A stretch of 64,000 nt of DNA from a virus. The notes beneath the pieces were generated by a model. That model saw only the letters and a list, made by a program, of their open reading frames with translations, made no database searches and was not told the DNA's origin. Within the stretch, counting starts at the first letter, position 1; each line of letters begins with the position of its first letter. Made by a program: the position numbers and the translations under genes. Where the stretch lies: the IMG/VR virus record IMGVR_UViG_3300036770_003021, positions 62,001 through 126,000 of that record, one strand, 5' to 3'. Of the stretch, positions 1-62,852 are shown one piece after another.

Positions 1-95
1 GCGCCTGTATTCACAAAATCAAATGGATGTGCCATATGACCTCCGGCACCACCTTCTTGTATTACTTCATTCAAAATATTATTCAGCTTTATCAT
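1..95 (-). CDS. N-terminus of an unidentified protein, cut by the window edge
   Basis: Only the first 31 codons are present; the gene continues to the left. The ATG at 93-95 opens a frame starting MIKLNNILNEVIQEGG and then reading GGHMAHPFDF. The start overlaps the 3' end of the next gene by 17 nt, as expected inside an operon. The first ten residues belong to the leader type (MI-x-L-x-x-[IL]-[IL]-x-E) that recurs on other proteins here, and may be a capsid-targeting or processing signal. The Gly-rich GGAGGHMAHPF stretch looks family-specific but I cannot name the function from 31 residues. Confidence 0.6.
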   Translation of the reverse strand, partial: MIKLNNILNEVIQEGGAGGHMAHPFDFVNTG

Positions 96-58388: not shown

Positions 58389-58462
58389 TGGAGCCTCCAG
58401 CAGGTACCGCCCCTGCGTTTCATCATTACCAATGATGTGTAATACTTTTATACTATGAAGGC
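58389..58462 (-). tRNA. tRNA-Thr(GGT), variant elbow
   Basis: Acceptor GCCTTCA, U73, CCA encoded, anticodon stem CATCA/TGATG with loop TTGGTAA. D-loop TAAAAGTAT (A18), T-loop GGCGGTA. Confidence 0.85.
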
Positions 58463-58687: not shown

Positions 58688-58761
58688 TGGTTGACCGTGC
58701 CGGTTACGCTCCGGCGTAGGACGATTATCAGTCGTCTATTCTGCTATTGAATTAACGGTCA
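58688..58761 (-). tRNA. tRNA-Ile(GAT), variant elbow
   Basis: Acceptor TGACCGT, A73, CCA encoded, anticodon stem GACGA/TCGTC with loop CTGATAA. D-loop AATAGCA (A18), T-loop AGCGTAA. Confidence 0.87.
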
Positions 58762-59272: not shown

Positions 59273-60022
59273 TTAAACGTTACTTTGTTTCTTTGGATAT
59301 GGTTGAATTGACTTAATCAATCCACCCAATATTCTTTTACCATCACTAGAATTTTGTCCGGATAAAATATAAATGTACATATGTTTTCCAGTAGCAGTTC
59401 TTATTTCAAATGGACTATTAGGATTGGTTCTTGCATCATTTGCTGCATCTTTACCAGTTTCAAAACCATACTTCTTTATTTGTGGTAATCTATACACCCA
59501 CTTGTTTTCTTTTTTATCCCACAAACGTTTTGTATCTTTACTCTTGCCTAAATAAATTGCATTTGTTGCTTGATATATAGATCCAGTATGTCCCTGTCCA
59601 CTATCAGCCCGTGTAATAACAACCTTTAATTCGGGATAATCCTGTTTAATCTTTTTATTACCCAAACCAATTACATACGACGCCAAGTTGCTTAACTCAG
59701 GTATTTGTTTTGCCTCAGGTTTCAAATATAATCTCAATAACTCAAATACTTCATTCTTTTGCAATAAACTGTTGCCCTCTGCATCTACAGCTATTTCTTC
59801 ATAATCTTGTGGCTTGGTGGTTTGTCCATAAACAATCACTCCTACCATATCCACATTACCATCTGTCTTCTTGTACATCACACCATAATTAGCAGCCACC
59901 GCCGTAGGATATGTCTTTAAATAATGCTGCTTAATAAAATTCAATACTTCAGATTTACTCTTGGGTTCCAAATATACACTATCTTTCAAACCCTCCAATA
60001 TTAATTCTTTCAATTTAATCAT
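59273..60022 (-). CDS. Mom-like DNA-modification protein (GNAT fold) with N-terminal leader
   Basis: A 249-residue protein. Residues ~130-160 read VVITRADSGQGHTGSIYQAT followed by NAIYLG. This is the signature of the Mom family of phage Mu (AD-x-x-QGH-x-G-x-IYQA-N), acetyltransferase-fold enzymes that hypermodify adenine in phage DNA against restriction. The helix before it (ELSNLASYVIGLGNKKIKQ) fits as well. The upstream in-frame ATG at 60082 is rejected because it would run through the tRNA-Phe gene. The start at 60022 gives the leader MIKLKELILEG and a TATTTATA box 4 nt away. A leader that might send the enzyme into capsids is odd for a DNA-modifying protein. Confidence 0.65.
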   Translation of the reverse strand: MIKLKELILEGLKDSVYLEPKSKSEVLNFIKQHYLKTYPTAVAANYGVMYKKTDGNVDMVGVIVYGQTTKPQDYEEIAVDAEGNSLLQKNEVFELLRLYLKPEAKQIPELSNLASYVIGLGNKKIKQDYPELKVVITRADSGQGHTGSIYQATNAIYLGKSKDTKRLWDKKENKWVYRLPQIKKYGFETGKDAANDARTNPNSPFEIRTATGKHMYIYILSGQNSSDGKRILGGLIKSIQPYPKKQSNV

Positions 60023-60026
60023 ATGA

Positions 60027-60034
60027 TATAAATA
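60027..60034 (-). promoter_or_regulatory. TATTTATA box, candidate late promoter
   Basis: The minus-strand octamer lies 4 nt before the ATG at 60022, in the short gap left of the tRNA-Phe gene. Confidence 0.5.
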
Positions 60035-60055
60035 TCTGCATGCATCGTCAAAAAA

Positions 60056-60131
60056 TGGTCCCAATTGTTGGTTCCGCCCCAACCTCTCAAGTTCTTCAGA
60101 CTTGCGCTTTCACTAGGTTAGCTTAACTGGG
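60056..60131 (-). tRNA. tRNA-Phe(GAA), variant elbow
   Basis: Acceptor CCCAGTT, A73, CCA encoded, anticodon stem CAAGT/ACTTG with loop CTGAAGA. D-loop AACCTAGTGAA (A18), T-loop GGCGGAA. Confidence 0.87.
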
Positions 60132-60145
60132 ATTATAAATCTATT

Positions 60146-60222
60146 GACAAGTCAAAGGAATCGAACCTTTTCGGAACAGAGTCGCCCGCTCCTTTACCAC
60201 GCCCTGCGCACTAGCACCTGTC
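60146..60222 (-). tRNA. tRNA-like gene with an irregular middle
   Basis: Acceptor GACAGGT/ACTTGTC pairs fully and the T-arm AAAGG-TTCGATT-CCTTT is conventional, but one extra base separates them. The D and anticodon arms do not fold regularly, and no T33-anticodon can be fixed. CCA is not encoded. May be degenerate. Confidence 0.4.
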
Positions 60223-60232
60223 AAAAACTAAA

Positions 60233-60333
60233 TTGTGTGGTTGGAATCGAACCAACGGCCCGTGCTTATTCACACTTTTACGGTGTCATTTACCATCATA
60301 GTGAGCACTGATCTACCCCTGAACTACACACAA
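60233..60333 (-). tRNA. tRNA-like gene with a 30-nt insertion in the anticodon loop
   Basis: Acceptor TTGTGTG/CACACAA, D-arm with GG, anticodon stem GTGCT/AGCAC, 5-nt variable region and TTCGATT T-loop are all regular. The anticodon loop has 37 nt instead of 7. The insert can form CACT/AGTG and GGT/ACC. If it is removed to leave C+TGAATA, the anticodon would be GAA (Phe); this is a guess. CCA not encoded. Confidence 0.6.
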
Positions 60334-60340
60334 TCTAAAA

Positions 60341-60807: not shown

Positions 60808-60893
60808 TGGTGGGGTATGTAGGTAATGCTCCTACCCAGCCCGAAGGCAACGGTTTTACAGACCGTTCTGCGTCTTTATCAGTATAATACCCC
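60808..60893 (-). tRNA. tRNA-Tyr(GTA), class II, variant elbow
   Basis: Acceptor GGGGTAT/ATACCCC, A73, CCA encoded, anticodon stem ACGGT/ACCGT with loop CTGTAAA, variable arm GCC-TTCG-GGC. D-loop ATAAAGACG (A18), T-loop AGCATTA. Confidence 0.88.
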
Positions 60894-61031: not shown

Positions 61032-61154
61032 CTCCAGAGGAGGGTTTCGAACCCCCAACCCTGCGGTTAACTTTGGCCTTGTGAGATTTGCACTCTCTAT
61101 TAAATAATACTTTATGGCCCACAGCCGCATGCTCTACCATTGAGCTACTCTGGA
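61032..61154 (-). tRNA. tRNA-Asn(GTT) with a 51-nt insertion in the anticodon loop
   Basis: Acceptor TCCAGAG/CTCTGGA, G73, D-arm GCTC-AATGGTA-GAGC, anticodon stem TGCGG/CCGCA and T-arm with TTCGAAA are all regular. The loop is CT + 51 nt + GTTAA; removing the insert leaves CTGTTAA, a perfect Asn loop. The insert contains GGCC/GGCC and a GAGA-GTGCAAA-TCTC hairpin. It is too short for a group I intron. CCA not encoded. Confidence 0.8.
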
Positions 61155-61162
61155 ATTGAAAA

Positions 61163-61240
61163 TGGCTCCAGCCCTTGGCTCCGCCCCAAGCTCGACACGG
61201 TTTAACAGACCGCCGGTTACACTAAGTTTCCTTGACTGGA
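61163..61240 (-). tRNA. tRNA-Asn(GTT), uninterrupted, variant elbow
   Basis: Acceptor TCCAGTC, G73, CCA encoded, anticodon loop CTGTTAA. D-loop AAACTTAGTGTAA (A18), T-loop GGCGGAG. Directly follows the interrupted Asn gene. Confidence 0.87.
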
Positions 61241-61253
61241 ATTAAAAATTAAA

Positions 61254-61328
61254 TTTGAAAGTGTGGATTCTCTTACCACCACTTAGGGCGGACTGCCCAG
61301 TTCTGACTTCAACAGACTCTCTTTCAAA
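61254..61328 (-). ncRNA. Candidate structured RNA (75 nt)
   Basis: Ends pair as TTTGAAAG/CTTTCAAA (8 bp). Inside are GGGC/GCCC and GTGG/CCAC hairpins, giving a tRNA-sized three-armed fold without a usable anticodon loop. The rest of this gap (61329-61430) shows no feature. Confidence 0.4.
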
Positions 61329-61430
61329 AAATGTTTACTGGATTTCACTATGCTTGTTCCACCTACTAACTATAACCTCGTCAGATTATAACCTTCAATG
61401 TCTATCAGTGTCAATACATTACTTACTACT

Positions 61431-61507
61431 TCAACTATTGATTCAGATTCGAACTGAATGACTACTGCATACAGCGCAGTTGCTTTACCAATTAAGCTAC
61501 GTTCGTT
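61431..61507 (-). tRNA. Broken tRNA-like sequence
   Basis: A regular D-arm (AATTGGT), anticodon stem ACTGC/GCAGT and T-arm TTCAG-TTCGAAT-CTGAA are present. The loop GCTGTAT has C33 in place of U33 and the acceptor stem pairs only in its outer CAAC/GTTG. No CCA. Probably a decayed tRNA. Confidence 0.4.
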
Positions 61508-61531
61508 GCCTTCACCTAATGTATTTAAAAA

Positions 61532-62203
61532 TTATTTATATACTCTACCTTTAACATATCCGTTTGTCAAGTATGTTTGTAGTTGTTCTTTTTTAATTTT
61601 AAGATTTTTATTTGTTTCAGAATGATATACCCAACAAGTTCCATATTGGGAATTTTTTGCACCGGATTGTGCTACTTTTAGTTTTTCTCCGATTTTCTTT
61701 TTTGTATCTTCTTTATGTTTTTTACCGGTCCAATGAAAAGCATTTTGTTTCCATTTTTCCTTTAAAGATGTTGATACTTTCTGTTTCCATTCTTCAAATA
61801 ATCCTTTTTCAATTAAAAATTCTTTTATCTTATCTCCTGTCAACAAATTCTTTTTCCTAATCTCAATATTTTTATGATGTATATTTTTTCCAGATTCGTT
61901 TATATAAGAATAACCGCCATAACCACCTTCCATTATATTGTAAGTATTATTCGATTCAATAAATAATTGGTTTACAATTTCTCTTTCTTTGGAAAACATT
62001 TCTTCAGCGGTATCAAATATAAATAAAATTTCTTTAATAAAATTTTCTTCACCATATTTTTGTATTGCTCTTTTTAGAAGTTTTCCAGAACCCATATAAT
62101 TGTCCTGCAAATTTTTTGTTTTATGCATTCCAATGTAAATTTTTTGGTTCAATTTATTTGTAATCTTATATATCGTGTATTTATATTGAGCGTTCGTGTC
62201 CAT
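61532..62203 (-). CDS. GIY-YIG homing endonuclease
   Basis: A 223-residue protein. YTIYKITNKLNQKIYIGMHK is the GIY-YIG core with the second Tyr-Ile-Gly, followed by the conserved Gly-Ser-Gly loop (YMGSGKLL), Glu in KEREIVNQL, and NIMEGGYGG. The C-terminal half has NUMOD-like DNA-binding repeats (HWTGKKHKEDTKKKI). The ATG at 62203 is chosen because the longer frame to 62281 runs into the tRNA-Trp gene. TATTTATT lies 3 nt before the start. Confidence 0.85.
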   Translation of the reverse strand: MDTNAQYKYTIYKITNKLNQKIYIGMHKTKNLQDNYMGSGKLLKRAIQKYGEENFIKEILFIFDTAEEMFSKEREIVNQLFIESNNTYNIMEGGYGGYSYINESGKNIHHKNIEIRKKNLLTGDKIKEFLIEKGLFEEWKQKVSTSLKEKWKQNAFHWTGKKHKEDTKKKIGEKLKVAQSGAKNSQYGTCWVYHSETNKNLKIKKEQLQTYLTNGYVKGRVYK

Positions 62204-62692: not shown

Positions 62693-62768
62693 TGGTTACC
62701 CCACTTGGATTTTCACCAAGGTTGATGTCTCAGAGAACACATCCGTCCTAAACCTAGACGATAGGGTA
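62693..62768 (-). tRNA. Glu-like tRNA with a 10-nt anticodon loop
   Basis: Acceptor TACCCTA, A73, CCA encoded, D-arm like those of the two Glu genes next to it. The anticodon stem GATGT/ACATC encloses GTTCTCTGAG, 10 nt instead of 7. T-loop TGAAAAT has A56, an abnormal elbow. Possibly a degenerate Glu tRNA or an expanded-loop decoder. Confidence 0.55.
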
Positions 62769-62776
62769 ATTAAAAT

Positions 62777-62852
62777 TGGGGTGAATAAGGAGATTTGCAC
62801 TCCCTTTGATTGCTTCACAGGCAATGCTCTTACTACATAGAGGATATTCACC
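62777..62852 (-). tRNA. tRNA-His(GTG), variant elbow
   Basis: Encoded G-1 opposite C73, the His identity pair. Acceptor GTGAATA, CCA encoded, anticodon stem ATTGC/GCAAT with loop CTGTGAA. D-loop TATGTAGTAA (A18), T-loop TGCAAAT (G55). Confidence 0.9.

Follow-up and report, generated by a model that had tools for sequence, protein, structure and literature searches.

How a tRNA gene whose anticodon loop is split by 51 nucleotides can serve a bacteriophage is the question raised by one locus of the window, by which we mean the whole 64,000-nt stretch of DNA analysed here. The window belongs to a 134-kb virus record, and its tail sheath gene identifies the phage as contractile-tailed. On the minus strand, the segment 61154-61032 encodes tRNA-Asn(GUU) in full, interrupted by 51 nt in the anticodon loop (Table 1). 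The Rfam tRNA model RF00005 matched this segment with 52.5 bits, leaving a local gap at the anticodon loop, and ARAGORN called it as tRNA-Asn(gtt) with a 51-nt intron when introns were allowed; without introns, the gene was not called. Both results bear out the preliminary description, according to which removal of the insertion leaves the loop CUGUUAA. The joined exons form a cloverleaf with U33, a GUU anticodon, U1-A72 and G73, as expected of a tRNA-Asn(GUU), and removal of the insert is needed for decoding. No CCA is encoded by exon 2 of the window copy; CCA is encoded in the related records L012 and L024.

Taken alone, the window copy leaves the junction ambiguous, since CTGTTAA results whether it is placed at CT^G, CTG^T or CTGT^T. 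The copy in phiM12, a phage that grows on Sinorhizobium meliloti, reads CTGT^GGGAGA...AAGAG^TAA and can be joined only as CTGT+TAA, which places the insert between positions 35 and 36 and sets its boundaries in the window. The earlier placement near positions 33-35 thus had to be abandoned.

Table 1. Interrupted tRNA-Asn gene of the window, elements of its insert, and a ligase-like protein gene.
Feature	Position in window	Strand	Sequence or pairing	Basis
Exon 1 of tRNA-Asn, positions 1-35	61121..61154	(-)	TCCAGAG TA GCTCAATGGTAGAGC A TGCGG CTGT	Rfam RF00005, ARAGORN -i, exon table
51-nt insert between U35 and U36	61070..61120	(-)	GGGCCATAAAGTATTATTTAATAGAGAGTGCAAATCTCACAAGGCCAAAGT	Boundary set by phiM12 comparison
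Exon 2 of tRNA-Asn	61032..61069	(-)	TAA CCGCA GGGTT GGGGG TTCGAAA CCCTC CTCTGGA G73	Rfam, exon table
Acceptor-like stem, 5' strand	61114..61119	(-)	GGCCAT; pairs with 61080-61075	
Linker	61098..61113	(-)	AAAGTATTATTTAATA; AAAGG-type linker in other phages	Structural alignment
T-arm-like hairpin	61081..61097	(-)	GAGAG-TGCAAAT-CTCAC	Structural alignment; match to tRNA-His T arm
Acceptor-like stem, 3' strand	61075..61080	(-)	AAGGCC	Structural alignment
5-nt tail preceding U36	61070..61074	(-)	AAAGT	Structural alignment
344-aa protein, 5' end	1..95; remainder beyond the window (contig 61061-62095)	(-)	Motifs KIDG / NIEYVEG / EGIVVRD	

The same interrupted tRNA was found in 13 other IMG/VR contigs. 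Across these 14 related records the insert is identical or differs by one base (a single C/T), and in L022 it is kept although the flanking DNA is unrelated. The exons do vary: in L012 the acceptor stem is altered on both strands in a compensatory manner, with the insert unchanged or one base off, and in L024 the anticodon stem TGCGG/CCGCA has become TTCGG/CCGAA and the T stem is also altered, with pairing kept in both. Substitutions in the insert of a further relative, L069, leave its helices paired. Near-invariance of the insert combined with compensated variation of the exons indicates a gene that is maintained, not decaying; the progressive decay among relatives that the preliminary description had named as counter-evidence was not seen. 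A decaying pseudogene or an assembly artefact, to which the annotation of the phiM12 copy as a pseudo tRNA might point, is accordingly most improbable, given that independent assemblies and cultured isolates contain identical copies and that the element is conserved and covaries. Linkage of the insert to an adjacent GIY-YIG gene was rejected: L015, L018, L022 and L024 carry the insert without that gene next to it, and the gene occurs in L005 and L008, which lack the insert.

Exon-pattern scans and BLAST yielded 15 distinct inserts at the same tRNA-Asn site in otherwise unrelated phages, 43-51 nt in length, plus one odd insert of 35 nt. All of them allow the reading CUGU^insert^UAA, which puts the site between U35 and U36. 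Most of the contigs are incomplete. Carriers with differing inserts are L066/L070/L071, L073/L075, L074, L076, L080, L081, L082, L083/L085, L084 and L086; cultured carriers include the Sinorhizobium phages phiM12, phiM7 and phiM19 and the Agrobacterium phage Atu_ph07. In the latter, a canonical tRNA-Lys(UUU) is interrupted as well, by a mini-tRNA insert (see below) of 48 nt, again at 35/36. Because most scans fixed CTGT and TAA and asked for tRNA-Asn genes whose D arm reads GTAGANC, the specificity for Asn is partly a matter of ascertainment, and other tRNAs, of which Lys is known, are under-sampled. A scan for the insert core free of exon constraint (pattern CTAAAGGTN{6,13}GTTCGATTC) returned 32 matches. 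Five of these have an acceptor-like stem that fits; all five lie in tRNA-Asn at CTGT^TAA, and two of them are new (L132, L144). Matches to the insert pattern with a 47-nt span were rejected as unrelated coding sequence. In the Sinorhizobium jumbo phage Phosso, tRNA-Asn and tRNA-Lys are both uninterrupted, and presence of the insert therefore varies. With respect to a bacterial origin, a scan of genome contigs with a pattern of the CGG..CCG stem type returned just ordinary tRNA-Asn genes and chance downstream matches, and plasmids, checked with the Lys element, held no interrupted copy. Among CC-licensed papers in PMC, we found no description of such inserts.

In the structural alignment, all inserts apart from the 35-nt one of L074, which has no T arm, share one architecture: one head base (G, once A) is followed by six acceptor-like bases, a linker of 8-19 nt (often AAAGGTAAAT; AAAGG-type) and a T arm with a 5-bp stem and a 7-nt loop (TTCRATT, TGCAAAY, TGCAACT or GTCGGCA). 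This arm leads with no spacer into the second acceptor strand of six bases, which is followed by a tail of 5 nt in the commoner class A (AAAAG, AAGAG, AACCG and similar) or 2 nt in class B (L076, L081 and L084). Over the 15 distinct inserts, 83/90 cells of the acceptor-like stem are paired, compared with a mean of 55 and a maximum of 73 in 10000 shuffles; for the T stem, the values are 67/75, 47 and 60, respectively. In 15/15 inserts, G-C forms the innermost T pair, resembling G53-C61 of tRNAs; at the first acceptor pair there is a mismatch, mostly G.A. In 15/16 positions, the hairpin of the window insert agrees with the T arm of a tRNA-His that lies at 62777-62851. By its covarying fold, then, the insert is a tRNA acceptor/T domain devoid of an anticodon arm, i.e. 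a mini-tRNA, with the linker where a D stem and anticodon arm would otherwise be. The GGCC/GGCC helix and the hairpin reported in the preliminary description are present as described, and are now read as the acceptor-like stem and the T arm of this mini-tRNA. The head base and the first tail base can be interpreted as pair 1-72, in which case class A inserts end like N76 and class B inserts like N73.

Bacterial group I introns prefer anticodon loops and splice after U, and the inserts share with those of bacterial tRNAs both the location and a 5' exon ending in U. That they are group I remnants is nevertheless highly improbable: at 35-51 nt they are far shorter, they have no catalytic core and no Rfam group I match, their 3' ends vary (AAAGT, GAGAT, AAGGA) with no conserved terminal G, and they display a covarying mini-tRNA fold without a decay series. 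A group I intron proper would be expected to have a conserved catalytic core, a length of about 200 nt or more and a terminal G, as opposed to the 51 nt found here. A group II remnant was rejected together with it, in line with the original view that the insert is neither.

Once the insert is removed, 17/17 readable copies fold as a cloverleaf bearing U1-A72 and G73, which is the signature of bacterial tRNA-Asn; both features were absent from the search patterns and so were not imposed by the scan. The stems of these copies are paired at 7/7 (once 6/7) positions in the acceptor, 4/4 in the D, 5/5 in the anticodon and 5/5 in the T stem. An uninterrupted canonical tRNA-Asn was not found in any of the carrier records (19/19). 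The published annotation of Atu_ph07 (MF403008) lists tRNAs for every amino acid but Asn and Thr (PMC6102473). The "missing" Asn gene is present in the genome, interrupted and unannotated; for Thr, ARAGORN with introns of 20-80 nt gave no interrupted gene. Two other elements that read as interrupted tRNA-Asn carry different labels, that of phiM12 (L077 1495-1617) being annotated as pseudo tRNA-OTHER and that of phiM7 (L078 594-716) as tRNA-Thr. In the window family, another tRNA-Asn(GUU), an odd one, lies at 61245-61170 (-), just upstream of the interrupted gene, and Asn decoding there therefore need not rely on the latter.

These observations bear on the idea that the transcript stays unspliced and acts as a tRNA-like non-decoding RNA or a decoy, for example as bait for a host anticodon nuclease, with the mini-tRNA blocking the anticodon loop. 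The second tRNA-Asn would fit this idea, as would other tRNA-like RNAs lacking a proper anticodon loop in the tRNA region of the window (61433-61506 and 60144-60226). We consider it improbable, because in all 17 readable exon sets tRNA-Asn identity is fully retained and joining gives a correct CUGUUAA loop, most carriers are without another canonical tRNA-Asn, and the insertion site is nucleotide-exact across unrelated phages. That the insert is removed and the exons are sealed is, in our judgement, quite likely.

The tRNA region of the window is unusual in further respects. Of the two tRNA-like RNAs just mentioned, both with conserved D and T arms, the one at 61506..61433 (-) has a non-decoding anticodon loop with 6-8 variable nt in relatives, and the one at 60226..60144 (-) a 7-bp anticodon stem with a non-decoding loop of 5-6 nt. 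The T loops of five tRNAs (61245..61170, 60131..60059, 60886..60810, 58761..58691 and 58462..58392, all (-)) are without TTC and read GGCGGAG, GGCGGAA, AGCATTA, AGCGTAA, GGCGGTA or similar, several being conserved in relatives. An anticodon-loop insert also interrupts a second tRNA-like gene, at 60334..60231 (-), called by ARAGORN -i as Phe(gaa) with 30 nt (ACTATGATGGTAAATGACACCGTAAAAGTG); the insert is identical in L003, L013, L015, L018 and L022, and the exons are non-canonical (U37, T at 73). We did not assign this gene to the mini-tRNA class, from which it departs in insert, site and exons alike. At 62768..62693 (-), a tRNA with a 4-nt anticodon (ctct) and an enlarged loop was called, also in L002 and L003. 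The non-coding segment 61030..60890 (-), 95-100% identical in most relatives, has the end stem ATATGATGTATG/CATACATTATAT and matched no Rfam family at gathering score. A Mom-like DNA modification protein (PF25680, E 1.4e-24; phrog_1384) is encoded inside the tRNA array at 59273..60082 (-).

Next we consider the enzymes that could remove the insert. The preliminary description had suggested a splicing endonuclease by analogy with archaea and eukaryotes, a suggestion that does not hold in the records tested: EndA (PF01974) was detected in 0/19 phage records and in the positive controls from 4 archaea. Its call for a phage ligase fared better in part. RtcB (PF01139) was found in 0/14 and 0/19 phage records, with controls detected, whereas a T4 Rnl1-type ligase (PF09511) is common in carriers, namely phiM12 (AGR47967), phiM7, the L066 group and Atu_ph07 as well as the records of L073, L074, L080, L082 and L086. 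Rnl1 is encoded by 7/7 class A lineages of at least 150 kb, compared with 1/6 controls of the same size with an uninterrupted tRNA-Asn (Fisher p=0.005, for a small sample and with relatedness ignored); over all lineages, fragments counted, the association is weaker (p=0.07). The class B carrier L081 (340 kb) gave no Rnl1 match, and the window-family contigs, which reach 134 kb and are partial, probably fragments, contain no RNA ligase recognisable by Pfam, the window's own contig included. However, a 344-aa protein with ligase-like motifs (Table 1) occurs in 5/5 window-family contigs of at least 91 kb. Three of four members gave a weak match to Pfam RNA_ligase PF09414 (best E 0.043), and the AF2 model is poor (mean pLDDT 37). 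On the basis of its motifs, we regard it as a candidate RNA ligase of the window phage.

Based on these data, we propose that the insert is a small tRNA intron of a new kind, a mini-tRNA excised by end-processing and sealed by a phage ligase, an interpretation that we hold to be somewhat probable. The mini-tRNA shape suggests enzymes of tRNA end maturation. RNase P reads acceptor/T-arm minihelices and prefers U at -1; the inserts present a stack of about 12 bp with a T-like loop, the structural hallmark of an RNase P mini-substrate, the base at -1 is U35, and that at +1 is mostly G. In the proposed scheme, the host cloverleaf would persist in the precursor, from whose anticodon loop the mini-tRNA would project. 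RNase P would cut 5' of the mini-tRNA, at U35^N1, and a 3' tRNA-processing cut would release U36. The resulting 3'-OH and 5'-phosphate, ends that suit Rnl1, would be joined by an RNA ligase, in most carriers the phage Rnl1, to give a decoding-competent tRNA-Asn. The tails of the mini-tRNAs are mostly not CCA, which leaves the 3' cut without an obvious known enzyme. Removal by RNase P-type cuts followed by sealing through Rnl1 is a tentative proposal, to which we assign slightly less than even likelihood.

The chief rival is a dedicated endonuclease, of phage or host, that reads the junction, the ends being healed and then sealed by Rnl1 as in T4 tRNA-Lys repair. Folded precursors do share a junction in which C32-G and U33-A pairs to the tail are formed, a 3x3 loop holds the 5' site and the 3' site has UAA as a bulge of 3 nt, an arrangement that loosely recalls a relaxed bulge-helix-bulge. 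The presence of Rnl1 in carriers suits this route as well. We nevertheless deem it unlikely, given the lack of PF01974 and RtcB in the phage records described above; it also leaves the tRNA-like look of the insert unexplained. Assignment to the bulge-helix-bulge introns was rejected: in place of the strict 3-nt bulge, 4-bp helix and 3-nt bulge, the folds have a 2-bp helix, a 3x3 loop and a single 3-nt bulge.

To our knowledge, small tRNA introns that are not self-splicing have been thought to be restricted to archaea and eukaryotes. The phage inserts resemble those introns in being short, in the anticodon loop and in need of precise removal, but they belong to phages of bacteria, PF01974 and RtcB are absent from the phage records tested, they lie at 35/36 instead of 37/38, and they form a mini-tRNA without a strict bulge-helix-bulge. 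The co-occurrence of Rnl1 genes recalls the repair pathway in which T4 RNA ligase 1 seals breaks in tRNA anticodon loops; there the break is made by a host anticodon nuclease, whereas here it would stem from removing an encoded insert. Like minimal RNase P substrates, the inserts offer a 7 + 5 bp acceptor/T stack, preceded by U at -1 and starting in most cases with G at +1. They differ from them in being nested in the anticodon loop of another tRNA, an arrangement for which we know of no precedent, and in having a tail other than CCA.

Taken together, the recurrent insert, mostly accompanied by the phage's own RNA ligase, points to an undescribed way of tRNA splicing in bacteria. A third tRNA splicing route, in which end-maturation enzymes excise bacteriophage mini-tRNA introns and phage RNA ligase 1 heals the break, has in our estimation almost, though not quite, an even chance of being correct. 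Tools for finding tRNAs that are run without introns under-report phage tRNAs, as exemplified by Atu_ph07, published without a tRNA-Asn. If the proposal is true, Rnl1 gains a dedicated, positive role in biosynthesis beyond repair, and mini-tRNA introns bear on the question of how tRNA introns originated. A recurrent, tRNA-shaped class of inserts in bacterial phages would amount to a separate invention of tRNA splicing.
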